DNA of 23,483 bases from a virus, in IMG/VR virus record IMGVR_UViG_3300044951_000572, positions 1 to 23,483 of that record; one strand, given 5' to 3'. This document shows positions 2,981 to 23,483 of this stretch, in pieces. Under the pieces are notes generated by a model, which saw only the letters and a list, made by a program, of their open reading frames with translations, was not told where the DNA came from and did no database searches. Numbering within the stretch: position 1 is the first letter of the stretch; the number at the start of each line of letters is the position of its first letter. Made by a program: the position numbers and the translations under genes.

Positions 2981-4533
2981 GCCAGCAAATCCAGACCTTT
3001 TCTGTATCGGCTCCAGGCTTCTTTGGACTCAATACACAAGACTCTCCGCTTGATTTAGCGGCTGGATACGCTGCGATTGCTACAAACTGCGTGATTGACC
3101 AGTACGGGCGCATTGGCTCTCGCAAAGGCTTTTCAAGGGTTAACACATCCTCTGGTAACCTTGGTGCAAACAATGTAACAGTCATCCATGAGTTGGTTCA
3201 GACTGATGGCACTCTGACTGTTTTGTTTGCTGGAAACAACAAGCTATTTAAACTGAGTGGCGCTACTGTTACTGAGTTGACCTATGGGGGGGGAGGTACT
3301 GGCCCCACCATTACCGCAAGCAATTGGCATTGTGCTTCTTTGAATGGAATCACATATTTCTTTCAGTCAGGGTATGACCCACTGATCTATGACCCTGCTG
3401 TAAGCACCACCACATACAGGCGTGTGAGCGAGAAAAGTGGTTATGTTGCGACTGCTCCACAAACCAACATTGTTATCTCTGCCTATGGTCGCTTGTGGAC
3501 TGCTAGTAGCACTGCTGACACTGTAACTGTCTATTTCTCTGACTTACTGGCAGGGCACATCTGGTCAACAGGAACTGCTGGTTCTTTGGACATTTCACGG
3601 GTGTGGCCCAATGGGTCTGATGAGATTACAGGGTTGGCGGCTCACAATGGGTTCTTGTTTATCTTTGGCAAGCGTCAAGTATTGATTTATGCAAATGCGA
3701 CTACCCCATCAAGTCTGTCTCTGAGTGACACCATAAGCAACATTGGTTGCATTGCAAGGGACTCCATTGCCAATACAGGCAGTGATGTGGTTTTCTTGTC
3801 AAACAGTGGTGTGCGCTCATTGCTCAGAACCATTCAAGAGAAGTCTGCACCTTTGCGGGACTTGTCTAAGAATGTGCGCGATGACTTGATGACGATTGTG
3901 AATGCTGAGACATTGGCAAACATCAAGGCAGTCTATTCAGAGTCAAATGCCTTCTACCTGATTAACTTTCCGACTGCAACCCAGACCTATTGCTTTGATA
4001 CCAAGGCGGCATTGCAAGATGGTTCTTCACGGGTAACTGTGTGGGATTCCATCACGCCAACGGCTTTCCTTGCTAAACGCAATGGAGACTTGTTGATTGG
4101 CAAGAATGGTTATGTGGGCAAGTATGGCACTTACCTTGACCATGCAAGCACATACAGATTGCAGTATTTCACCACCTATGCTGACCTGGGTGCGCCCAAT
4201 GTCACATCTATCCTGAAGCGCATTGCTGTAGTAGTGATTGGTGGCTCAAGCCAAGGCTTCATCATCAAGTGGGGATATGACTTCACGGGTCAGTATTACG
4301 CCACCACATTGCAAATTCCTCAGTCTACTGTTGCTGAATATGGTACTGCTGAGTATGGGGCAAATGGTGTTCCTGTTGCTTACTACTCAGATGGCATTTC
4401 TTTGCAGACTTTGGTTGGTCAAACATCAGGTTCTGGCAAGACTGTGCAGACGGGTTATGAAGTGCAGATCAATGGGTATCCTGTGAGCATTCAAAAGATT
4501 GAGATACAAGCCAAGAATGGCAAACTGGTTTAA
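2977..4533 (+). CDS. Tail nozzle / tail tubular protein B-like
   Basis: A 518-residue beta-rich protein. The N-terminus contains FGLNTQDSPLDLAAGYAAIATNCVIDQYGRIGSRKGF, the conserved opening of nozzle-type proteins in environmental podoviruses, where the chain runs from the adaptor ring into the tube. The rest shows repeated strand patterns with Trp/Tyr-rich turns (WTASSTADTVTVYFS, NGFLFIFGKRQVLIYAN, NAFYLINFPTATQTYCFD), consistent with a propeller-like body. It is translated from an ATGA overlap with the adaptor gene. It probably closes the tail exit channel until adsorption. No enzymatic motif was seen. Confidence 0.7.
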   Translation: MSQQIQTFSVSAPGFFGLNTQDSPLDLAAGYAAIATNCVIDQYGRIGSRKGFSRVNTSSGNLGANNVTVIHELVQTDGTLTVLFAGNNKLFKLSGATVTELTYGGGGTGPTITASNWHCASLNGITYFFQSGYDPLIYDPAVSTTTYRRVSEKSGYVATAPQTNIVISAYGRLWTASSTADTVTVYFSDLLAGHIWSTGTAGSLDISRVWPNGSDEITGLAAHNGFLFIFGKRQVLIYANATTPSSLSLSDTISNIGCIARDSIANTGSDVVFLSNSGVRSLLRTIQEKSAPLRDLSKNVRDDLMTIVNAETLANIKAVYSESNAFYLINFPTATQTYCFDTKAALQDGSSRVTVWDSITPTAFLAKRNGDLLIGKNGYVGKYGTYLDHASTYRLQYFTTYADLGAPNVTSILKRIAVVVIGGSSQGFIIKWGYDFTGQYYATTLQIPQSTVAEYGTAEYGANGVPVAYYSDGISLQTLVGQTSGSGKTVQTGYEVQINGYPVSIQKIEIQAKNGKLV

Positions 4534-12627: not shown

Positions 12628-13216
12628 TGAGCAACTAAAGAAACTCCACATTGGGGTTGAGTGGGTTGATGCCCTCAATGAAACCTTCAACACTTTTGGC
12701 ATTAACACACAGCGCCAGCAAGCTGCCTTTATCGGGCAGTGTGGGCATGAATGTGGGAACTTTAAGACCCTGGAAGAGAACCTTAACTATCGTGCTGAAA
12801 CCCTGATGAAGTTGTGGAAGGCAAGGTTTCCAACGATGGAGATTGCCAATCAGTATTCCAAAAATCCTAAGAAGATTGCAAACAAGGTGTACAGCAGTCG
12901 TATGGGAAACAGGGATGAAGCATCTGGTGACGGGTATCGGTTCAGAGGCCGTGGGTGCATCCAGTTGACGGGCCATGCAAACTACTTCCATGCTGGACAA
13001 GCACTGGGAGTTGACTTTGTAATGGAGCCTGACCTTGTGGCAACGCCCAAGTATGCGGCACTGACTGCTGGTTGGTTCTGGTCAACCCACAATTGCAACA
13101 ATCTTGCTGAAGCTGCTGATTGGGTTGGATTGACCAAGAAGATCAATGGTGGGACTATTGGCCTAGATGACCGAATCAAGCACACTAACGAGGCTTTTGC
13201 GGTGCTTGGCTCTTGA
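12617..13216 (+). CDS. Endolysin, glycoside hydrolase family 19
   Basis: The 199-residue enzyme matches phage GH19 endolysins (chitinase-like lysozymes cleaving peptidoglycan glycan chains). GQCGHECGNFKTLEENLNY holds the catalytic pair, Glu45 (in HE) and Glu54 (in ENLNY), and GYRFRGRGCIQLTGHANY at 106-123 is the family substrate-binding signature. AGWFWSTHNCNNLAEAADW and TKKINGG complete the conserved core. There is no signal peptide, so it depends on a holin for release. The start has GGGGGTGAT upstream and overlaps the i-spanin gene by 11 bases; its 3' end overlaps the opposite-strand HTH gene by 32 bases. Confidence 0.9.
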   Translation: MVNSEQLKKLHIGVEWVDALNETFNTFGINTQRQQAAFIGQCGHECGNFKTLEENLNYRAETLMKLWKARFPTMEIANQYSKNPKKIANKVYSSRMGNRDEASGDGYRFRGRGCIQLTGHANYFHAGQALGVDFVMEPDLVATPKYAALTAGWFWSTHNCNNLAEAADWVGLTKKINGGTIGLDDRIKHTNEAFAVLGS

Positions 13217-13400
13217 GTTTTCCACGATTGAATATCTTGTGTTTCTTGAAGAAGTACAAGACAGCTTGGTAAGCAACACCAAACCTTTTGGCAATCTCTT
13301 TCTTGCTAACACCATCTTTCCATAGCGTCAATGCTCTGGATTCGCTGATTTGAGTGGGTTTCCTGCCACTTCCAGGTCTTGCGCCACCCTTAGTCTTCAT
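13185..13400 (-). CDS. Small helix-turn-helix DNA-binding protein
   Basis: A 71-residue basic protein. After KTKGGARPGSGRKPTQISES, the segment ALTLWKDGVSKKEIAKRFGVAYQAVLYFFKKH (about 24-55) reads as a three-helix HTH of the resolvase/Hin or terminase-small-subunit type (GVSKKEIAKRFGV then a recognition helix). The GGARPGSGRK opening is common in phage terminase small subunits and related DNA-binding proteins, but at 71 residues it lacks their oligomerisation domain. It is the last gene of the leftward operon, converges on the endolysin gene and overlaps its end by 32 bases. Its start overlaps the preceding gene by 11 bases. Confidence 0.65.
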   Translation of the reverse strand: MKTKGGARPGSGRKPTQISESRALTLWKDGVSKKEIAKRFGVAYQAVLYFFKKHKIFNRGKLKSQAPQKPR

Positions 13401-16812: not shown

Positions 16813-17025
16813 TCAGACTTTGTTGAGAATTCTATAGGTGTTTTCCCTAACTTGTTCACATTGGGCTTGTGTGATCCACATTGTCAGCAAGGTCAGTTGG
16901 CTTTGAATTGTTTGAATGTCAGCCGTGAACCCTGCGTAGTTTTTGTTTAGACACTTGTTCTCCAGTGCTTTGGTCTTTTGCTCGATTGAGATTAGCATCG
17001 TGCTGTAATCGTTGAAGTCGCTCAT
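16813..17025 (-). CDS. Small helical protein of unknown function (70 residues)
   Basis: The product is one long helical pattern (SDFNDYSTMLISIEQKTKAL, FTADIQTIQSQLTLLTMWIT, QCEQVRENTYRILNKV) with no conserved motif recognised. AAAAGGC lies seven bases before the ATG. Its first 107 bases are overlapped by the end of the upstream gene in another frame, and its last codons contain copy 2 of the TAGGG-type palindrome. It sits immediately upstream of the annealing recombinase. Confidence 0.55.
   Translation of the reverse strand: MSDFNDYSTMLISIEQKTKALENKCLNKNYAGFTADIQTIQSQLTLLTMWITQAQCEQVRENTYRILNKV
16835..16849 (-). promoter_or_regulatory. TAGGG-N5-CCCTA-type palindrome, copy 2
   Basis: TAGGTGTTTTCCCTA is a one-mismatch version of the TAGGG-N5-CCCTA palindrome and, with the preceding A, identical over 16 bases to copy 3 at 17699-17713. 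It is inside the end of the 70-residue gene and 53 bases before the Sak3 ATG. The flank AAGTTAGGG on the leftward strand is shared with copy 1. Confidence 0.45.
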
Positions 17026-17628: not shown

Positions 17629-17763
17629 ATATTCACTCCTGTTGACCACTGCCAAATAGCAGTGATAGGACTTTCGCACAGAAAAAAGATGCAGGGAATA
17701 GGTGTTTTCCCTAGTGCAAAAACTTGTAAAACCCATCATACTGAGGTTTTTGGAGACAAGCAA
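17629..17763 (+). promoter_or_regulatory. Divergent control region between leftward and rightward early operons
   Basis: This 135-base gap separates two divergent operons and must hold promoters for both. Visible elements are a perfect hairpin CACTGC-CAAATA-GCAGTG at 17647-17664 just upstream of the leftward ribosome site, the TAGGTGTTTTCCCTA palindrome at 17699-17713, and a possible rightward promoter GTGCAA (17714-17719), 17 bases, CATACT (17737-17742), whose -35 abuts the palindrome. The promoter match is only moderate. The palindrome placed between both directions fits an operator for a phage or host regulator. Confidence 0.5.
17699..17713 (-). promoter_or_regulatory. TAGGG-N5-CCCTA-type palindrome, copy 3
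   Basis: TAGGTGTTTTCCCTA, 70 bases upstream of the first leftward gene, also overlapped by a GGGAA-N8-TTCCC inverted repeat (17694-17711). Of all copies it has the clearest promoter position, lying directly beside the candidate rightward -35 box. Confidence 0.5.
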
Positions 17764-18126
17764 ATGCGTTTAAACCTCACCCATCGAACATTGCTCAAGC
17801 GCCTATCAGGTGGCCCCAGGACAATGCTTGAGATGACCCACAGCCACACAGACAACAACTCTGTATCGTTTCACTATCAAAGATACCTGCCCGATTTGGA
17901 GCAATTTGGGTATGTAATTAACCATCAAGAGAAGTGGCATCTGACTGAGTATGGGCGCATGGAGATGAACAGGGCCATCAGTGGTGCAGCTATGCGGATT
18001 GAGAATGGGTCTGTCAAAGAAATCTATGATGGCAAGGAATTGCGTAGGAATGTTCAACGCCGTGGTTGCTATGATTTCTTGAAGTATCCAAGTCGCTTTG
18101 GCGACAATCAGATTTACAAAGCCTGA
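17764..18126 (+). CDS. Putative winged-helix regulatory protein (120 residues)
   Basis: The product starts RLNLTHRTLLKRLSGGPRTM, then HYQRYLPDLEQFGYVINHQE and WHLTEYGRMEMNRA, which reads as helix, helix, recognition helix and a wing ending in W-LTE-G, a typical winged-helix pattern (compare LTx-GR/LTEKG in many phage and archaeal regulators). The C-terminal part (YDGKELRRNVQRRGCYDFLKYPSRFGDNQIY) resembles a tail common to small phage proteins. GGAG lies eight bases upstream of the ATG. First gene of the rightward early operon and next to the control region, so an early regulator is plausible. Confidence 0.6.
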   Translation: MRLNLTHRTLLKRLSGGPRTMLEMTHSHTDNNSVSFHYQRYLPDLEQFGYVINHQEKWHLTEYGRMEMNRAISGAAMRIENGSVKEIYDGKELRRNVQRRGCYDFLKYPSRFGDNQIYKA

Positions 18127-18127
18127 T

Positions 18128-18208
18128 ATGATGTTTGGGAATCCGGCTAGGGTAGCTCCTGAAAAGACGATTAGTCCCCGTCCTGCCGTAAATTCCCTTG
18201 GTGACTAA
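18128..18208 (+). CDS. Possible 26-residue peptide
   Basis: Tiny reading frame starting one base after the preceding stop, product MMFGNPARVAPEKTISPRPA then VNSLGD. No ribosome site is visible. It occupies most of the 102-base gap before the initiator-like gene, which otherwise shows no hairpin or clear promoter. Its protein-like composition is the only support. Confidence 0.25.
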   Translation: MMFGNPARVAPEKTISPRPAVNSLGD

Positions 18209-18228
18209 ACCTATGACTTAAGGTTGAT

Positions 18229-18963
18229 ATGCAATTAATTCCCAAAAACTGGGTTTCTTTCCAGCACTATAAGCATCGCTCTCCACCCTGGATAAAGTTT
18301 CATCGTTCGATTCTGAATGACAGAAGCTATATGAGCTTGCCACTTGCTAGCAAGGCGCTAGCACCATTAATGTGGTTGCTTGCATCAGAGTCCAAAGATG
18401 GAACTTTTGATGGCTCACTGGATGAGCTTGTGTTCAGACTCCACATTACCCCAAAAGACTATCAAGATGGTGTTAAGCCATTGATTGATAAGGGATTCTT
18501 TATTGTTGCTAGCGGAGTGCTAGCAGATTGCAAGCAACTTGCTATCCCAGAGATAGAGACAGAGAGAGAGATAGAGACAGAGAAGAGACAGAGAGCAACT
18601 AGCGTTGCACCGCCTGACGGCGTTTCACAATCTGTTTGGCAGGAATTCGTTAATCATCGAAAGTCAAAGAAAGCCCAGGTCACCCAGTTGGTGATTGATG
18701 GAATCCAAAAGGAAGCTAACAAGGCTGGGTTTAGCCTTGAAGATGCCCTGAAGGAAGTCGTTGTAAGAAATTGGCAAGGTTTCAAAGCTGAGTGGGTTTT
18801 ACCAAAGCCCACCTTTGGCGACATGGCGAGGGTATCTGTTGCACCCATTCAAGGCCGTGATCCTGCTTTACTCAAGCTGGATGAAGACAAAAAGCACACA
18901 GGCCCACCACCGCCAGAAATCATGGCACAAATCAGAAATGCGTTGAAAGGAAAAGTAACATGA
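18229..18963 (+). CDS. Replication initiator / helicase-loader-like protein
   Basis: The 244-residue protein begins with a phage replisome-type module: WVSFQHYKHRSPPWIKFHRS, MSLPLASKALAPLMWLLASE, FDGSLDELVFRLHITPKDYQ and VKPLIDKGFFIVASG form a winged helix (about 8-100). A Glu/Arg linker (residues 107-124) is followed by SVWQEFVNHRKSKKAQVTQL and AGFSLEDALKEVVVRNWQGFKAEW (about 136-188), the C-terminal domain of DnaT/phage-O-like loaders. AAGGTTGAT precedes the ATG. It probably binds the origin and recruits a helicase; the gene itself carries repeats suited to an origin. The C-terminal -FKAEW- motif is the strongest link to phage replication proteins. Confidence 0.7.
   Translation: MQLIPKNWVSFQHYKHRSPPWIKFHRSILNDRSYMSLPLASKALAPLMWLLASESKDGTFDGSLDELVFRLHITPKDYQDGVKPLIDKGFFIVASGVLADCKQLAIPEIETEREIETEKRQRATSVAPPDGVSQSVWQEFVNHRKSKKAQVTQLVIDGIQKEANKAGFSLEDALKEVVVRNWQGFKAEWVLPKPTFGDMARVSVAPIQGRDPALLKLDEDKKHTGPPPPEIMAQIRNALKGKVT
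18345..18608 (+). other. Candidate phage replication origin (palindromes and direct repeats inside initiator-like gene)
   Basis: Within the initiator-like gene lie two perfect TGCTAGC-N5-GCTAGCA palindromes (18345-18363 and 18507-18525), a GCAAG-CAA-CTTGC inverted repeat (18530-18542), two identical 17-base purine-rich direct repeats with 18-base period (18549-18565 and 18567-18583) plus a partial third, and GCAAC-TAGC-GTTGC (18595-18608). In lambda the origin lies within the O gene between the DNA-binding and partner-binding domains, the same position as here. Origin function is inferred. Confidence 0.5.
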
Positions 18964-19124
18964 CAGAGCAACAATTCGAGCAAGCAATGGATGGTTATCA
19001 GTTAGATAGCCAATATGCGGAGTTCATCATGGATCAACAAACAGTTGGGAATGGTCATGTTTTGACCACATTGATGGAACGAGGGGATTATTATGAAGCC
19101 TTCAAAGAAAAGATGGTGACATGA
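18960..19124 (+). CDS. Small paralogue A (MTEQQFE type, 54 residues)
   Basis: The product is TEQQFEQAMDGYQLDSQYAE, then FIMDQQTVGNGHVLTTLMER and GDYYEAFKEKMVT. It starts on an ATGA overlap with the initiator-like gene and has AAAGGA upstream. It is a tandem paralogue of the next gene: both start MTEQQFE-AM and end GDYYE-FKEKM. Function unknown; small acidic helical proteins of this kind are common between replication genes. Confidence 0.7.
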   Translation: MTEQQFEQAMDGYQLDSQYAEFIMDQQTVGNGHVLTTLMERGDYYEAFKEKMVT

Positions 19125-19303
19125 CTGAACAGCAATTTGAAGCCGCAATGAGAACATTTAATCTCGAATTGGAATATAGAGACTACATCATGGAGAGGGC
19201 CAACCTTGAAAATGGTGATGGTATTTTCCGATTGATGAACAGTGGTGATTATTATGAAGGCTTTAAAGAAAAAATGACAGGAAACCAAAATGACCAAAGA
19301 TGA
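19121..19303 (+). CDS. Small paralogue B (MTEQQFE type, 60 residues)
   Basis: The product TEQQFEAAMRTFNLELEYRD, YIMERANLENGDGIFRLMNS, GDYYEGFKEKMTGNQ aligns along its full length with the preceding 54-residue protein (shared MTEQQFE, AM, Y-(E/D)(F/Y)IM, G-G, L-M--GDYYE-FKEKM). The start overlaps the preceding stop by four bases; it has a few extra C-terminal residues and overlaps the next gene by 14 bases. The pair appears to be an old tandem duplication that has diverged strongly. Confidence 0.7.
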   Translation: MTEQQFEAAMRTFNLELEYRDYIMERANLENGDGIFRLMNSGDYYEGFKEKMTGNQNDQR

Positions 19304-19551
19304 AGCCCACCACTTGCTCAACAAAAGAAAACAAGGGCTTGCAGTCCCACTCTACCTTGTCAACAGAGCCTTACTTGTATCAGGAGACCTTGGAATGGCT
19401 TGTTCACCTTGCCAAGCAACCAGGGTGGAAAGCACAAGCATGGCACAGGGCGAAGGAATTAGAGAAATGCCCAACATACCTATGGCTTGGGATTTCGACC
19501 GATTTAATCAACACCATGAAAGCCCACAATGACGATTTGGATAGGGCTTGA
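19290..19551 (+). pseudogene. Conserved small phage gene interrupted by a one-base frameshift
   Basis: The first part, from ATG 19290 (AGGA upstream), reads TKDEAHHLLNKRKQGLAVPL YLVNRALLVSGDL and then loses sense. The frame one base on continues from about 19390 as EWLVHLAKQPGWKAQAWHRA KELEKCP and LWLGISTDLINTM to the stop at 19551. I recall one continuous phage protein with exactly this order (VNRAL--TGDL---LVHLAKQPGWK-YAWHRAKEL---LW-GI--DL). The break lies at GACCTTGGAA (19386-19395), which has one base too many. Either a true disrupting insertion, a sequencing error or an unusual frameshift. Both halves remain open, with the second frame free of stops from 19300. Confidence 0.6.
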
Positions 19552-20023
19552 CCCTGGCAGCATTAGTGGCGCAGTTGGTGCATTGGATTCAAATGGTGAT
19601 TATTTAGATTCTTTTATGATCGAGCATAAAGATAAGAATATATTGCCCCTCGTATTCAAAAACATGATTCTCAGGTGCATCGACCCAAGGGAAGGGGCAG
19701 AGATTTGCATGGAATCAGTCCATTCAATGCCAGGGCAAGGGGTTGCAAGCAGTTTCCAGTTTGGCAGGGCAGTAGGCGTTATCTCAGCGGTGGCTGAATT
19801 AACCCGTTACCCTTTTCACTTGGTAACGCCTCAGAAATGGAAAAAGTATTTCCACCTGACAAGCGATAAAAACGAAAGCCTAGACCTTGCCCGATCATTT
19901 TGGCCTGAAGCTAAGCTAATCAGGAAAAAAGATGGAAACAGGGCAGAGGCATTATTAATTGCACTTTATTGGCGTGAGCAGTTGAATGGCAAACAAGATA
20001 AACCCATTAAGAACCCAGACTGA
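19529..20023 (+). CDS. RuvC-like Holliday junction resolvase
   Basis: The 164-residue enzyme has the RNase H fold signature of RuvC-like resolvases: WIGLDPGSISGAVGAL with Asp8, ICMESVHSMPGQG with Glu62, a FGRAVGVISAVAEL helix, and DGNRAEALLIALYWRE with Asp135 and Glu140 supplying the last acidic residues. Such phage enzymes cut branched DNA before packaging and during recombination, in line with a Sak3-type recombinase in the same genome. The start overlaps the preceding frameshifted gene by 23 bases and has a weak ribosome site, implying coupling. Confidence 0.85.
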   Translation: MTIWIGLDPGSISGAVGALDSNGDYLDSFMIEHKDKNILPLVFKNMILRCIDPREGAEICMESVHSMPGQGVASSFQFGRAVGVISAVAELTRYPFHLVTPQKWKKYFHLTSDKNESLDLARSFWPEAKLIRKKDGNRAEALLIALYWREQLNGKQDKPIKNPD

Positions 20024-20210
20024 TTTAAAACTGGATTTAAGCGCAGAGCAAAGGGCTATTTTAGAAACCCTTGGCAGGGGCAACATGACCCAGGGAATCA
20101 GGGTAGCCATTGACCAAGCAGGGCACTTCTTCAATTGTGGGCTGGAGCCAGAAATGGACTTGCGTTATGTGGGCTTGGTCACCACTATCCCAGGCCATGA
20201 TGATGATTGA
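19986..20210 (+). CDS. Small conserved phage protein (LSAEQRAILETLGRGNMTQGIRVAID type)
   Basis: The 74-residue product contains LDLSAEQRAILETLGRGNMT followed by QGIRVAIDQAGHFFNCGLE. LS-EQRA-LE-LG-GNMT-GIR-AID is a recurrent phage motif that resembles a ribbon-helix-helix pattern (strand, two helices) and may therefore bind DNA. The acidic C-terminus (EMDLRYVGLVTTIPGHDDD) varies. It overlaps the end of the resolvase gene by 38 bases, and has only a weak ribosome site. Confidence 0.6.
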   Translation: MANKINPLRTQTDLKLDLSAEQRAILETLGRGNMTQGIRVAIDQAGHFFNCGLEPEMDLRYVGLVTTIPGHDDD

Positions 20211-20298
20211 CCACAAAAAGGCTTACCAAAGGGCTTTAAAGGGGCTTTTAAGGGGCTTTTGTTGGTATTGGTGGACAGTGAGAGAGGGTAAGACATGA
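20203..20298 (+). CDS. Possible 31-residue peptide before the HNH gene
   Basis: Starting at the third of three consecutive ATGs (20203; AGG eight bases upstream), the product is IDHKKAYQRALKGLLRGFCW followed by YWWTVREGKT. It overlaps the previous stop by eight bases and its own stop overlaps the next ATG (ATGA), the coupling style used throughout this genome. An aromatic-hydrophobic stretch (GFCWYWWTV) could associate with membranes. Part of the coding sequence is a GGGGCTTTTAA tandem repeat. Confidence 0.4.
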   Translation: MIDHKKAYQRALKGLLRGFCWYWWTVREGKT

Positions 20299-20756
20299 CA
20301 AACGCTAAAAAAGACCGCAAGCAAAGGGAATTCTTGCTCAAAACTTACGGCAAGCGATACGATAGGCATTGGAGTGGACGACCTGGGTGTTTTTATTGTG
20401 GAGACAAATGGTTAGAGCTTGACCATTGTCCGCCTTTAAGTTGGTGCGAAGCAAAAGAGCATAAGTGGTTTAAAGAGCGCAAAATCGGTTTTTATTTGGT
20501 TAACTCATGCTCAGACTGTAATAGGATGCTATCAAATAGAGCATTATTTACACTGCAAGAGAGGGCAGAATTTATCCGCATAAGGTTAGAGCGCAAAACA
20601 GAGAAAATTGTAATTTGGTCAAATGATGAAATAAAAGAAATGAGCGAGCGATTTCAAAAGACCATAAAAGCCCGACAACAAATGCAAAACACGCTATTAG
20701 ATCGGCTTAGATATTCGCAAGAAATGCAATATAGGGCAGATGATTTTCCCCTTTAA
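20295..20756 (+). CDS. HNH endonuclease-like protein
   Basis: The 153-residue protein has a basic N-terminus, then GCFYCGDKWLELDHCPPLSW (C32, C35, Asp43-His44) and VNSCSDCNRMLSNR (C72, C75, Asn81). Two CxxC pairs bind zinc and LELDHCPPL supplies the catalytic His of a beta-beta-alpha metal HNH fold; a third conserved residue is probably an Asn in the second motif. The long charged C-terminal helix is not recognised. Last gene of the rightward early operon, near the resolvase; it may help DNA processing or packaging, or be a mobile-type nuclease. Confidence 0.7.
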   Translation: MTNAKKDRKQREFLLKTYGKRYDRHWSGRPGCFYCGDKWLELDHCPPLSWCEAKEHKWFKERKIGFYLVNSCSDCNRMLSNRALFTLQERAEFIRIRLERKTEKIVIWSNDEIKEMSERFQKTIKARQQMQNTLLDRLRYSQEMQYRADDFPL

Positions 20757-20771
20757 CCCTACATGGTAGGG
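20757..20771 (+). terminator. Hairpin after the HNH gene
   Basis: CCCTAC-ATG-GTAGGG, six pairs with a three-base loop, starting directly after the stop. It is not followed by a T-tract, so it is a weak terminator or an mRNA-stabilising hairpin. The following 65 bases up to the next coding end hold the leftward terminator at 20794-20820. Confidence 0.35.
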
Positions 20772-20793
20772 CTTGCAAGGGCTTAAAAGTGGG

Positions 20794-20820
20794 CAAAGAA
20801 AAACCGCCCGAAGGCGGCTT
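20794..20820 (-). terminator. Strong intrinsic terminator of the leftward accessory operon
   Basis: On the leftward strand CCGCC-TTCG-GGCGG is followed by TTTTTCTTT: a stable UUCG tetraloop hairpin with a clear U-tract. It lies 20 bases after the stop of the last leftward gene. On the rightward strand the hairpin lacks a T-tract, so it mainly insulates the rightward operon from leftward transcription. Confidence 0.8.
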
Positions 20821-20839
20821 AGTTAGTGGTTAATAACTT

Positions 20840-21178
20840 TTAAATTGTCGGAACCCAATAATCCCCCTCTGAGCCATTAACAATGCGATCATGGAAACCC
20901 AGCCACAATTCTGCCTCAATAATATCGCCCATTAGCCACCAGCGGAAAATCTGGGCATTGGGCATAAGCCCGTAAACATGTACCTCACCATTTCGGGTAA
21001 TTCGATAATTTCTTGGACCATATTTTGTGCGTAACGCATTACGCAATTCTGTGCGTGATATTTTTTTAATTTGTACCATTAAATTTTGCAAGCCATCATC
21101 TTTCATATAGCAGCCATTTATATGGTCAATTTCATATATTTCTTTTTTTAAATGTTCTTGATATTTTTCGGTATTCAT
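20840..21178 (-). CDS. Protein of unknown function (112 residues), last gene of accessory operon
   Basis: The product begins NTEKYQEHLKKEIYEIDHIN, has NLMVQIKKISRTELRNALRT, KYGPRNYRITRNGEVHVYGL MPNAQIFRWWLMGDIIEAEL and ends GFHDRIVNGSEGDYWVPTI. The second segment (TRTEL-NALR-KYG--NYRI---GEVHVYG-MPN) looks like a small alpha-beta domain recurrent in phage and plasmid hypotheticals. AAAGGATTAAA gives a good ribosome site. It is followed by the operon terminator. No catalytic motif is visible. Confidence 0.6.
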   Translation of the reverse strand: MNTEKYQEHLKKEIYEIDHINGCYMKDDGLQNLMVQIKKISRTELRNALRTKYGPRNYRITRNGEVHVYGLMPNAQIFRWWLMGDIIEAELWLGFHDRIVNGSEGDYWVPTI

Positions 21179-21238
21179 TTTAATCCTTTCATTTTTTGCG
21201 GGTTAGGATGCGGAGAATAAGTGCAAGGGTGGCATAAA

Positions 21239-21457
21239 TCAATGGTTTTCCCCTTTTATTGGATTTCCTGATTTATCCCAAATATCAAACCATGTTGACA
21301 TTTGGCAATGATCGCATTTGATGCAATATCTACCCCGCCCATTTGCAAACCCATCATCTTTTACATTTTGAGGGTTTAAGGGCTTGAGGCATTGCAAACA
21401 ACCCCATGTGGCTGCTGCATTTGCATTTTGATATTGTGGAAATTGTGGGGCATTCAT
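21239..21457 (-). CDS. Zinc-ribbon-like protein (72 residues)
   Basis: Start at ATG 21457, overlapping the preceding stop; an upstream TTG (21472) is less likely. CLQC (C20, C23) and CIKCDHC (C45, C48, C51) give two cysteine pairs about 21 residues apart, expected for a small zinc ribbon; the region between is Asn/Gly/Asp-rich. The C-terminus (TWFDIWDKSGNPIKGE) is a short beta-like tail. It may bind nucleic acid or a partner protein, but no family was recognised. The start has no strong ribosome site, in line with coupling. Confidence 0.55.
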   Translation of the reverse strand: MNAPQFPQYQNANAAATWGCLQCLKPLNPQNVKDDGFANGRGRYCIKCDHCQMSTWFDIWDKSGNPIKGENH

Positions 21458-22032
21458 GCGTATGCCGTCCAATGAGATGCCGCAAACAATTGTTTGTTTC
21501 CAACCTTTGCAATGGGTTTAATGCGATAGGCGCTGCAATAGCTTGCAATTCTCACGCTTGGCTCATCATTCCACATTGAAACCTTTTTTTTCATGGGTTT
21601 GCCAATGTAATGGCCTGGGCTTGGCACACACTCGCCAGACATAAAGCCATTTTCTTCACTCATTTGCCCAATTTCACAGATTTCAATCATGGCACCGATA
21701 ACCCTGGTGCATTCGTAATAGTCGATATTAGTTTGATCGTAGCCCCATGATGCCCTAAAAATGTCGCCCACTTGGACATTGTTGGGTTGGCTGCGCTTGG
21801 CTTTTAAATCGGCCTTCAATTGCAACGATTGCATAAACCCTTGTAAGGTTTCTTCAATTTTGGTCTTCAATCGTGTTTCATCTTTGAATCCAAAATGCCA
21901 ATCGGGTTTGGTGCGCTTTCCGCCAAATGCCATTGCAACAATGCGTTGGCTGTTTAATTGATAAACCTCAAACCCAAATCGCTCATCTTTAGCGATCAAT
22001 GTGTACCCTTGGGGAATGTATCTCTGTTTCAT
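21454..22032 (-). CDS. Conserved accessory protein with SWGYDQTNIDYY motif
   Basis: The 192-residue product opens with KQRYIPQGYTLIAKDERFGF and contains KPDWHFGFKDETRLKTKIEE, VQVGDIFRASWGYDQTNIDYYECTRVIGAM, and MSGECVPSPGHYIGKPMKKKV with VRIASYCSAY. I recognise PDWHF-F, GDI--ASWGYDQTN-D-Y-V and FIG-P---R(V)---VRI-SY--A as a conserved arrangement found in plasmid and phage accessory genes of proteobacteria; no activity is known to me. AAAAGGC precedes the ATG. It is preceded by two hairpins (22056-22093) in the 5' leader. Confidence 0.6.
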   Translation of the reverse strand: MKQRYIPQGYTLIAKDERFGFEVYQLNSQRIVAMAFGGKRTKPDWHFGFKDETRLKTKIEETLQGFMQSLQLKADLKAKRSQPNNVQVGDIFRASWGYDQTNIDYYECTRVIGAMIEICEIGQMSEENGFMSGECVPSPGHYIGKPMKKKVSMWNDEPSVRIASYCSAYRIKPIAKVGNKQLFAASHWTAYA

Positions 22033-22055
22033 GTGAAAGCCTTTTGAAGTGAAAC

Positions 22056-22093
22056 CCTGGAAAAGCCCAGGCCAAAGGGGACATAATCCCCTT
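22056..22093 (-). promoter_or_regulatory. Double hairpin in leader of the 192-residue gene
   Basis: AAGGGGA-CATAA-TCCCCTT (22075-22093) has seven perfect pairs; CCTGG-AAAAGC-CCAGG (22056-22071) follows on the leftward transcript. Neither is followed by a clean U-tract. They occupy the same place, between previous stop and next ribosome site, as the GGGGC hairpins of the other leftward leaders. Confidence 0.45.
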
Positions 22094-22111
22094 GAGCCTT
22101 GGTTTTATGCG

Positions 22112-22381
22112 TTATTCGTCAGCGTATGCCGACTCTATACGCTCGTTTGTGTCATCGCAATATAAACCCGAATCCTCCCAATTTATATCGCATCCCACCA
22201 CTTGCCAACCATCATTTAATGATTCATTGATTGAATCAATTATCAATTTTTGATTATGTATGGCTGATTTATATGAAATTGCCGCACCATCTGAGATTAT
22301 GAAATAGCGTGGATAACCTCCAGGCCAAGCATAAGGCTGGCAAAGGTCTTGTTTAAATTGTTCGATAGTATATTGACGCAT
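22112..22381 (-). CDS. Conserved small phage/plasmid protein (AWPGGYP type, 89 residues)
   Basis: The product contains PYAWPGGYPRYFIISDGAAI, NDGWQVVGCDINWEDSGLYC and NERIESAYADE. AWPGGYP-YF--SDG, DGW-VVG-D-NWED--LYCD---ERIESAYAE is a conserved order in phage and plasmid genes of proteobacteria; as I recall, relatives often carry extra zinc-binding Cys pairs around the second and last motifs that are missing here. AAAAGGCTTAAATC precedes the ATG. The gene follows the 26-residue peptide gene after 12 bases. Confidence 0.6.
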   Translation of the reverse strand: MRQYTIEQFKQDLCQPYAWPGGYPRYFIISDGAAISYKSAIHNQKLIIDSINESLNDGWQVVGCDINWEDSGLYCDDTNERIESAYADE

Positions 22382-22393
22382 GATTTAAGCCTT

Positions 22394-22474
22394 TTAAGTT
22401 GTCCACATGATGAATGCCAAGGCAAGGAAAGCCAGGGCTGAACCGATTAAAACGATTTTGTCTGCTGGGTGCAT
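22394..22474 (-). CDS. 26-residue membrane peptide
   Basis: The product HPADKIVLIGSALAFLALAF IMWTT is a single membrane helix with a short polar N-terminus. Support for being a real gene is the leader: it has the same TAGGCGTTACATC-ATG ribosome region as the ArdC-like gene 700 bases away, plus the same GGGTTTATCC element and GGGGC hairpin. Function is unknown; small accessory membrane peptides may act on host membrane proteins. Confidence 0.6.
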   Translation of the reverse strand: MHPADKIVLIGSALAFLALAFIMWTT

Positions 22475-22542
22475 GATGTAACGCCTATGAAGTGAAGTTG
22501 AATGATAGGGGCAAAAAGCCCCTATGCAATTAGGATAAACCC
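22475..22542 (-). promoter_or_regulatory. Repeated 5' leader module, copy B
   Basis: In leftward order: previous stop TGA, GGGTTTATCCTAATT (element copy at 22531-22543), a seven-pair hairpin TAGGGGC-loop TTTTT-GCCCCTA (22506-22524), a pyrimidine/adenine spacer (TCATTCAACTTCACTTC) and ATAGGCGTTACATC before ATG. It aligns along its length with the leader at 23181-23253. Confidence 0.6.
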
Positions 22543-22791
22543 TCACTGTATGCGATTGGCCCATGCTATGCCATCATTGGTAGCATGATAGGTGTGACAA
22601 TCGGCATCATGGTTTATAAACCCATGTTTAACCAGTGTGTCCATGATTGATTCAAACTGAGACAATGATGCCCCATGGCCCATTAAAGCGGCATAAATGA
22701 CCCCACTAGGCGCACCAGTAGGGCTAAGATTAGAAGATTCAATGATGCCCTTACCGATTGATTGAAGGGCTTTAATTTGCTGGTTTGTCAT
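22543..22791 (-). CDS. Small conserved protein, helical (82 residues)
   Basis: The product begins TNQQIKALQSIGKGIIESSN, continues GAPSGVIYAALMGHGASLSQ FESIMDTLVKHGFINHDAD and ends HTYHATNDGIAWANRIQ. GAP-G-(I/L)YAALM-HG-(T/S)L-QF--IM--LV--G is a pattern known to me from plasmid and phage accessory genes, and reads as a small winged-helix-like or helical module; function unknown. CATAGGTGTAACG before the ATG belongs to the repeated ribosome-site pattern of this operon. Confidence 0.6.
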   Translation of the reverse strand: MTNQQIKALQSIGKGIIESSNLSPTGAPSGVIYAALMGHGASLSQFESIMDTLVKHGFINHDADCHTYHATNDGIAWANRIQ

Positions 22792-22880
22792 CGTTACACC
22801 TATGAAGATTGATTGAAAACCCTAGGAAACCCCTAGGCCATAAACCCCTAGAATTAATCCAAGGGTTTACAGTCTATGGT
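22792..22880 (-). promoter_or_regulatory. Repeated 5' leader module, copy C (divergent)
   Basis: Contains CCTAGG-AAACC-CCTAGG (22821-22837), a second TAGG...CCCTA arrangement at 22834-22850 and three direct CCCTAG repeats within 30 bases, followed on the leftward strand by TTTTCAATCAATCTTCATAGGTGTAACG and ATG. It has the same architecture as the other leaders but a different hairpin sequence. Confidence 0.45.
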
Positions 22881-23180
22881 TTATTGAATCGGGTCGGTTT
22901 GCGAGATATGGAATACAGTGACTGAGCGACAAAGTTTATCGGGTTTGCCATCTTTATTGGTTTCAATCCAAGTGACGCACTTAATACCCTTTTCCCCTTT
23001 TCGCACTTGACGGTTTAAGGCTTTCCAAGCGTTATAAGTAAAGATATTTACCCTTGGCACAATGTCATTGTGGGCTATGCCCTTGGCTGCAAAGCCTTGC
23101 ACGATAGCAGGGTAATTTAAGAGTGAATCCCCTTGCTTGGCACGATTAAGGGAATCGATTGATTGTGTGATTTTGTCCAT
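22881..23180 (-). CDS. Stand-alone ArdC N-terminal-domain protein (possible anti-restriction)
   Basis: The 99-residue product contains VNIFTYNAWKALNRQVRKGE KGIKCVTWIE at 44-73 and SVTVFHISQT at 86-95, the conserved core of the ArdC N-terminal single-strand DNA-binding domain. Full ArdC proteins (about 300 residues) add a C-terminal metalloprotease-like domain that is absent here. Stand-alone N-domains have been described as hypothetical proteins in phages and plasmids; some ArdC proteins protect incoming DNA from type I and II restriction. Anti-restriction action here is inference. CACTTAATAGGCGTTACATC precedes the ATG. It is the second gene of the operon as seen from the right. Confidence 0.7.
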   Translation of the reverse strand: MDKITQSIDSLNRAKQGDSLLNYPAIVQGFAAKGIAHNDIVPRVNIFTYNAWKALNRQVRKGEKGIKCVTWIETNKDGKPDKLCRSVTVFHISQTDPIQ

Positions 23181-23253
23181 GATGTAACGCCTATTAAGTG
23201 AGTGAGTGAGAATTTTAGGGGCGATTAAGCCCCTTGGAAATAGGGATAAACCC
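23181..23253 (-). promoter_or_regulatory. Repeated 5' leader module, copy D
   Basis: In leftward order: previous stop TAA, GGGTTTATCCCTATT (TAGGG-type element 23241-23255), a hairpin AGGGGC-loop-GCCCCT (23217-23234), a CTCACTCACTCACTTA spacer and ATAGGCGTTACATC before ATG. Element, hairpin and last 16 bases before the ATG match copy B almost exactly although the genes they serve are unrelated. Confidence 0.6.
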
Positions 23254-23451
23254 TTAGATATGCTCAGGGTGATCGGGATAGTATTCTGTTTGGCTTATGT
23301 CCCAAGCAGTGACCCATTGACCATCACGGGTTTTACCCATTAGGTAAGGGGTTTGATGGAAAAAAGCCCCTTCAATTGAGAAGTCAACAAAGTCACAATC
23401 TGGCAGGGTTTTCAGATAATTGAGTGCTTGCAGTGCAGTTTTGGGATACAT
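23254..23451 (-). CDS. Small accessory protein of unknown function (65 residues)
   Basis: Start at ATG 23451 with AAGGTGTGACC upstream; a GTG two codons earlier is less likely. The product begins YPKTALQALNYLKTLPDCDF and continues FVDFSIEGAFFHQTPYLMGK, TRDGQWVTAWDISQTEYYPD. It looks like a compact alpha-beta protein with no known motif. It is followed by leader copy D of the ArdC-like gene. The 32 bases right of it (23452-23483) hold only its ribosome site and leader. Confidence 0.6.
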   Translation of the reverse strand: MYPKTALQALNYLKTLPDCDFVDFSIEGAFFHQTPYLMGKTRDGQWVTAWDISQTEYYPDHPEHI

Positions 23452-23483
23452 GGTCACACCTTTCAGTTTGTTTATGAACCACT

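Follow-up and report, generated by a model that had tools for sequence, protein, structure and literature searches.

How phages hold a shifting assortment of unrelated genes under a single control, with no fresh regulation for every gene, is a question made testable by the right end of IMG/VR virus record IMGVR_UViG_3300044951_000572, a lake-virus fragment of 23,483 bases (hereafter the window). Near this end, on the minus strand, short leaders precede the genes of an ArdC N-domain protein (ArdC-N), an 82-residue protein, a 26-residue hydrophobic peptide and a 192-residue protein. An earlier note on this DNA had described each of these unrelated genes as a cassette with its own leader, acting as promoter, attenuator or RNA-level switch, so that one signal could control the set. 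The genes do look unrelated: one encodes an ArdC N-domain, two are without a family match and the fourth has a PHROG of unknown function as its sole match. The leaders, in the reading that we consider probable, are of two kinds, namely two internal promoters marked by a repeated box and, at the two other junctions, a separate RNA module lying between genes. The spacing from the box to the −10 hexamer, the recurrence of the box before unrelated genes, the covariation of the RNA and its position at gene junctions were all computed.

The box and its distance to the −10 hexamer

Both near-identical leaders are complete and follow the order that had been claimed for them, from the stop codon through GGGTTTATCC, an AGGGGC/GCCCCT stem, a spacer of C, T and A, and CTTMATAGGCGTTACATC to the ATG (23253-23181 and 22542-22475 in that note; further coordinates in Table 1). 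The box is a semi-palindrome of 15 bp with two 5-bp half-sites, followed 21–22 bp on by a −10 hexamer; by the usual numbering its centre is near −42/−43, overlapping the −35 position. Both leaders fit the pattern box-N21/22-TANNNT exactly, while the same pattern read backwards gave 0 matches in the window, and both are more stably folded than the majority of their dinucleotide shuffles (z −2.44 and −2.55; equalled by 5 and 1 of 200 shuffles). A general promoter scan, returning 8 promoter-like sites against 7.8 in shuffles, paired the TAAAAT of promoter 1 with TTTCCA at 23240. The two leaders look like promoters of one repeated type.

The box pattern AGGGWWWNYMYYWAT was collected in the window and in 201 loci (L009-L209), which had been picked by the ArdC protein, the 192-residue protein or the junction-RNA pattern described below, and never by spacing; in viral loci the ArdC-N protein has 79 relatives and the 192-residue protein 9, and the strict leader pattern matches 7 stretches. 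Since several relatives are near-identical contigs, the main counts were taken on non-redundant sets, here 109 boxes (110 with a slightly wider pattern). A −10-like hexamer, defined as TAxxxT with at least 4 of the 6 letters of TATAAT, stands at offset 21 (36 boxes) or 22 (23 boxes) in 59 of the 109, against a mean of 0.95 and a maximum of 6 boxes at the other offsets between 0 and 59; under tighter redundancy limits it is found at 21/22 in 24 of 54 and 16 of 41 boxes. The backwards-read box had 0 matches in the sequences that gave the 109. Twelve longer records were searched with the whole pattern, which matched 16 times in 10 of them, against 1 match for its backwards control, with two copies in the window and one to three in the other records that have any.

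When all viral loci are considered, those picked by the pattern included, 429 hits with 192 distinct spacers were obtained; an open reading frame (ORF) led by a ribosome-binding site (RBS) lies within 120 nt of 282 of 294 distinct sites, and the genes behind the box form about 88 families, most of them small, by rough k-mer clustering. The idea that each gene has its own promoter fits two leaders of the four, those of the ArdC-N and 26-residue peptide genes, and, in relatives, the sites of this type before about 88 families. It is very hard to credit that the two leaders are alike just because of a recent block duplication, or of homogenisation by recombination, with no common function: their tails are identical in 17 of 18 bases and their stems are nearly so, as copying would leave them, but the architecture recurs with the 192 distinct spacers, and what is conserved is the spacing rather than the letters. 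The 21/22 distance is retained across spacers of the hairpin, poly-T, ATC..GCGT and TWEFD classes.

What the box could bind is suggested by its surroundings. In all 59 spaced boxes the best −35 match is 2–4 of 6, never more than 4/6, and the box centre at −42/−43 resembles the Mor site of the Mu promoter Pm, from which we infer an activator. The box might instead be a repressor operator, or a stoperator-like site, by which a lysogeny or early repressor would silence the promoters. This is rather unlikely: the box is semi-palindromic and similar palindromes stand in non-coding arrays of some relatives, much as operator clusters do, but a near-fixed distance of 21/22 nt together with a poor −35 is typical of an activator that contacts the polymerase, and operators are usually found at varied positions. 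Less likely still, the box would be the upstream element of a promoter read by an unusual sigma factor, as its near-fixed distance to the −10 and the lack of a good −35 might indicate; the −10, however, is of the sigma-70 kind, partly through the search rule, and with its 15 bp and two 5-bp half-sites the box exceeds a sigma −35 element in both length and symmetry.

The palindrome arrays lie in non-coding DNA and consist of related palindromes (AGGGTTTACCCTTA and the complementary sequence); they were seen in L003 from about 5063, in L026 (3418 +, 2707 −) and in L048 at 3110-3170; their palindromes are mostly outside the strict box pattern and perhaps form an operator or origin cluster. In another locus (L002:11860-11940), two tandem boxes 34 nt apart precede an accessory gene, and the second has the −10 hexamer TATATT and, close to where its transcript should begin, a hairpin.

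A covarying RNA at gene junctions

The interval 22792-22880 had been taken for a diverged third copy of the leader, and a leader of hairpin plus AAGG had been noted before 22032. Neither can be counted as a copy of the box leaders, as the box is absent from both and a covariance model assigns them to a different element, the junction RNA, which is a covarying double hairpin with a terminator-like second stem, distinct from the box leaders. Compared with shuffles, the folding of 22792-22880 gave a z of −3.11 and that of 22033-22111 a z of −3.29.

The pattern of this element, AGACTGNNANCCC..GGGGNTNNTGGCCT, occurs in at least 119 viral stretches. In a MAFFT alignment of 57 non-redundant copies (A1), where the letters inside the search pattern, unlike the varying pairs, are conserved by construction, 99.8% of the cells of stem 1 are paired, changes on both sides are present in 4 of 9 pairs, and the covariation score is 0.331 against 0.135 in shuffles. 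The pair in columns 7-35 is UA in 30 copies, CG in 15 and AU in 12; columns 8-34 have AU 36 and UA 21, columns 10-32 AU 37, GC 17 and GU 3, and columns 15-27 UA 46, CG 8, UG 2 and other 1. Covariation score, paired cells and double-change cells were above all 500 shuffles. The covariance model, which has 57 seeds, among them the copy of junction RNA 1 (L001), was run on 67 sources chosen among more than 300, seeds included, and finds 125 members, 19 of them without the exact flanks. In the 116 distinct model-aligned members both helices covary, with changes on both sides in 11 of 14 pairs and a score of 0.462; shuffles give 0.158, and slid structures do not exceed 0.097.

The position of the RNA is as regular as its structure: 119 of the 125 members lie between the stop codon of one gene and the RBS of the next, 122 are no more than 20 nt behind an ORF stop, 122 precede a same-strand RBS-led ORF, and the flanking genes amount to 40 by 40 rough gene families. 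The kinship of the RNA to its upstream and to its downstream gene showed no clear preference (mean identity 0.695 vs 0.714). Integron attC sites or REP-type mobile cassettes were set aside, the stop-to-RNA-to-RBS position speaking against insertion; N4-type hairpin promoters were dropped as well.

Stem 2 is a GC-containing hairpin with a U-rich tail, as a terminator should be, and has on average 4.6 T in the next 8 nt; a terminator scan, which gave 6 terminator-like sites against 3.1 in shuffles, picks it in both junction RNAs of the window. It is possible, if doubtful, that junction RNAs and spacer hairpins alike are sites of RNA processing or of 3' end protection, and not terminators. The 122 members followed by a same-strand ORF, and the ordinary terminator that ends the gene run of the window, would agree with this, and RNase III sites do lie between the early genes of T7. 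The U-rich tail and the choice of stem 2 by the scan argue otherwise, and the stems are short for RNase III.

In the tR2 study (PMC4824070), a terminator near a stop codon was repressed by ribosomes and was fully active beyond about 27–30 nt. As in that study, a hairpin and a U-run come shortly past the stop codon here; unlike its terminators, the junction RNAs sit inside gene runs. At the commonest spacing stem 1 starts about 11 nt past the stop codon, and, by position only, stem 1 is inside and stem 2 outside the ribosome reach given there.

We also considered, as quite an unlikely alternative, that the junction RNAs form a novel family of riboregulators acting within operons and reading the translation of the upstream gene, with the box promoters resetting the circuit at chosen junctions. 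Stem 1 would be within reach of the terminating ribosome, and an extended form paired through AGACUG and UGGCCU would exclude the base of the terminator hairpin; the arrival of the ribosome would then decide on read-through into the next gene. The flanks can lengthen stem 1 if stem 2 gives way, and in a few divergent members the extended pairing is kept by double changes; its third pair is mismatched in 106 of 116 rows. The attenuator or RNA switch of the earlier note fits the two junction leaders in their anatomy, with a double hairpin and a terminator-like second stem; the competing fold is energetically favoured in only 7 of 125 members, the window's 22038-22099 included. If the riboregulator reading were true, freshwater phages could swap small takeover genes, each at a set dose.

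Spacer stem-loops and the proposed mechanism

In both window promoters a stem of 6–7 bp lies between the box and the −10. Among 191 distinct spacers, a stem of 5 pairs or more reaches significance in 37 (5% level in shuffles, some being expected by chance). In 29 of these 37 the box coincides with the end of an upstream ORF, compared with 82 of 154 stemless spacers (Fisher p 0.005, the spacers not being independent). The letters of the stem vary (AGGGGC/GCCCCT, GGGCT/AGCCC, TAGTGT/ACACTA, GTGTTT/AAACAC and others), which is suggestive of a conservation of pairing itself. 5' hairpins near the expected transcript start go with 30 of 191 distinct spacers, and for 19 of these 30 no ORF ends at the box. 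In three loci (L045:4539, L047:2820 and L057:2907) a junction RNA begins directly after the −10 of a box promoter whose spacer stem is broken; this fits both hairpin types sharing one job, but the three are alike and may be related.

The only feature common to all four leaders is an AGG-type ribosome-binding tail, which is retained without the hairpin before many ArdC relatives whose gene directly follows another ORF; tail and hairpin are therefore separate modules. We regard it as very unlikely that all four leaders are RNA-level attenuators of one kind, the box being just part of the leader RNA. The similarity of the leaders is real, they have stems, and in RNA the AGGG..CCCT of copy 1 can pair, but the box variants AGGGAAAACACCTAT and AGGGAAAATCACTAT break this pairing and yet retain the motif, the box is kept where the hairpin is absent, and two of the leaders have no box. 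One signal for the whole set can be maintained for the box-bearing genes at most, and a single RNA switch for all four is unsupported.

Returning to the favoured reading of two box promoters and a separate junction RNA, promoter activity, dependence on an activator, termination and all effects on expression are predicted here from sequence. A putative phage- or host-coded factor would bind the semi-palindromic box around −42/−43 and recruit the sigma-70 RNA polymerase of the host to the −10 hexamer in the absence of a good −35, and the ArdC-N and 26-residue peptide genes would thereby gain start sites of their own within the leftward operon. The spacer stem-loop would be a separate module, most likely acting on the RNA of the upstream gene by protection of its 3' end or by weak termination. 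The second hairpin of the junction RNA would most likely set the ratio of the two genes, either by leaky intrinsic termination or by stabilising a 3' end, and the operon would most likely be driven from the box promoters, with the polymerase passing the junction RNAs at partial efficiency.

Several results weigh against this reading. The box pattern fits five sites in the window, and only the two leaders have the strict −10; this slightly lowered our confidence. Two of the three further boxes have a looser hexamer at offset 21. The strict −10 is likewise absent in 50 of the 109 boxes; of these, 12 lie across open frames no shorter than 100 codons, a looser hexamer only (any 4/6, offsets 20-23) is present in 18, and 6 are in palindrome arrays, the three groups overlapping. 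Matches of 4/6 to the −35 occur in 24 of the 59 spaced boxes against about 6 in shuffles, and this excess makes some factor-independent activity possible. For the spacer stem, 154 of 191 distinct spacers have none that is significant, and the compensatory changes that the earlier note had asked of the hairpin, strong in the junction RNA, give the AGGGGC hairpin (alignment A2) a covariation that is not above that of shuffled or slid controls. Within A1, the double-change pair count and the pair-type count were reached by 135 and 98 of 500 shuffles, and the model-based alignment (A3) is, unlike A1, fitted to the structure. If termination at the junction RNAs were efficient it would starve the downstream genes, some of which have only a few bases from U-run to RBS. 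Finally, the 33 records searched, of which many are fragments, gave no Mor-family activator (PF08765), and no other factor could be tied to the box.

The activator may be host-coded or unrelated to Mor. The only candidates in the window are a 120-residue protein at 17764-18126, with a weak sub-threshold Pfam match only, and a 71-residue protein at 13185-13400, whose helix-turn-helix matches are below threshold; no gene of the window stood out by its co-occurrence with box loci.

Known systems and other features of the window

The middle promoter Pm of phage Mu has a clear −10 and no −35, which is replaced by a 16-bp element with two 5-bp inverted repeats centred at −43.5 (PMC4390567). The box is similar in its two 5-bp half-sites in 15 bp and, if the start is as far from the −10 as usual, in its centre at about −42/−43; it differs in its letters, in its several copies per record and in the lack of a Mor-family protein in the 33 records. 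In cluster K mycobacteriophages, short repeats (start-associated sequences, SAS; the 13-bp GGGATAGGAGCCC) stand where part of the non-structural genes begin, and an imperfect inverted-repeat element with 17-bp arms (ESAS), of unproven function, lies just upstream of about half of them, with little support for RNA pairing according to the authors (PMC3203893, PMC12699233). The genomic layout is similar, with repeats before genes of different families; by contrast, the near-fixed −10 spacing marks the box as part of a promoter, and the RNA that covaries is a separate one. Neither GGGATAGGAGCCC at start sites, where the tail is of type AATAGGYGTNACATC, nor 17-bp inverted repeats of ESAS type, the stems having 5–8 pairs, were found here. 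The claim that no such system had been described can be kept for the letters, within the literature searched, and not for the layout. A literature term search, a weak test, found no paper with the exact box words and no junction elements of this kind. From sequence, we place the box promoters with the activator-type phage promoters, and the junction RNA with the terminator-like structured RNAs.

In Rfam 15 the window had no match at the gathering score, and relaxed searches, of 20700-23483 with an E limit of 1 and of six loci with a limit of 0.1, gave nothing over either element; weak matches below gathering were seen elsewhere, to CRISPR-DR66 at 21835-21863 and to int-alpA in L143. The exact junction-RNA pattern had 0 matches in the genomes of 84,980 species. 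The ArdC-N protein had no match among cultivated phages, and neither element matched in three phages whose replication proteins are related, two of them named isolates and the third an environmental assembly. BLAST of two leader sequences returned short matches only, with E 0.06 or worse among the best 10 of 21 and of 14 records. In plasmids, window 18000-23483 had no match.

Box and −10 together gave 17 matches in the species genomes, 13 of them over open frames of at least 171 codons in varied phyla, and the remaining 4 include two copies in one Herbaspirillum genome. As a link to a host these matches were rejected, since we consider them unrelated or due to chance. The two stretches of Herbaspirillum robiniae (L325, L331), near-identical and with a box and a TAATAT hexamer, are probably a repeated element.

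Taken together, the two elements suggest that small viral genes, although their set changes, share one scheme of control. For metagenomic phages they offer two searchable signatures, the box marking small accessory genes and the covarying RNA marking operon junctions, which aid the finding and the correct bounding of very small genes.

Table 1. Positions of leaders, promoter parts, junction RNAs and genes in the window.
Feature	Position	Strand	Basis or remark
Leaders 1 and 2, near-identical	23254-23181; 22543-22475	−	sequence
Promoter 1, whole-pattern match	23212-23254	−	pattern search
Promoter 1, box (AGGGTTTATCCCTAT)	23240-23254	−	first base ends the TAA stop of the gene upstream
Promoter 1, spacer stem-loop AGGGGC-TTAATC-GCCCCT	23217-23234	−	sequence and folding
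Promoter 1, −10 hexamer TAAAAT	23212-23217	−	22 nt after box
Shine-Dalgarno-like TAGGCGT before ArdC-N gene	23187-23193	−	retained before ArdC relatives without hairpin
ArdC N-domain gene, 99 residues	22881-23180	−	PF08401 match, E 6e-7
Junction RNA 1 (AGACUG, stem 1, UGGCC, terminator-like stem 2, GUUUU)	22803-22875	−	covariance model, E 1.3e-14
Junction RNA 1, terminator-like hairpin	22837-22821	−	terminator scan
82-residue protein gene	22543-22791	−	no Pfam or PHROG match
Promoter 2, box (AGGGTTTATCCTAAT)	22529-22543	−	first base ends the TGA stop of the 82-residue gene
Promoter 2, spacer stem-loop AGGGGC-TTTTT-GCCCCT	22507-22523	−	sequence and folding
Promoter 2, −10 hexamer TATCAT	22502-22507	−	21 nt after box; missed by general promoter scan
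Shine-Dalgarno-like TAGGCGT before 26-residue peptide gene	22481-22487	−	sequence
26-residue hydrophobic peptide gene	22394-22474	−	no match above cut-off
89-residue protein gene	22112-22381	−	between 26-residue peptide gene and 22032 leader; missing from the earlier list
Junction RNA 2, divergent, non-seed, before 192-residue gene	22038-22099	−	covariance model, E 1.7e-4
Junction RNA 2, terminator-like hairpin	22071-22056	−	terminator scan
192-residue protein gene	21454-22032	−	sole match a PHROG of unknown function
Ordinary intrinsic terminator, end of leftward gene run	20801-20820	−	terminator scan; not a junction RNA
Three further boxes	16834-16848; 17698-17712; start 14988 (−)		box pattern; strict −10 absent; one before a Sak-like gene, one in a divergent control region, one before a small gene

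Two annotations deserve mention. The 89-residue protein matches PHROG 18452 (E 1e-26), labelled 'DNA ligase'; the label is doubtful, the length being far below that of a ligase. Limnohabitans phage DC33 (PQ492659.1, L333) is filed under Inoviridae, an assignment that looks wrong for a record of 39,048 bp in which 52 genes are annotated and a single gene is longer than 9 kb.
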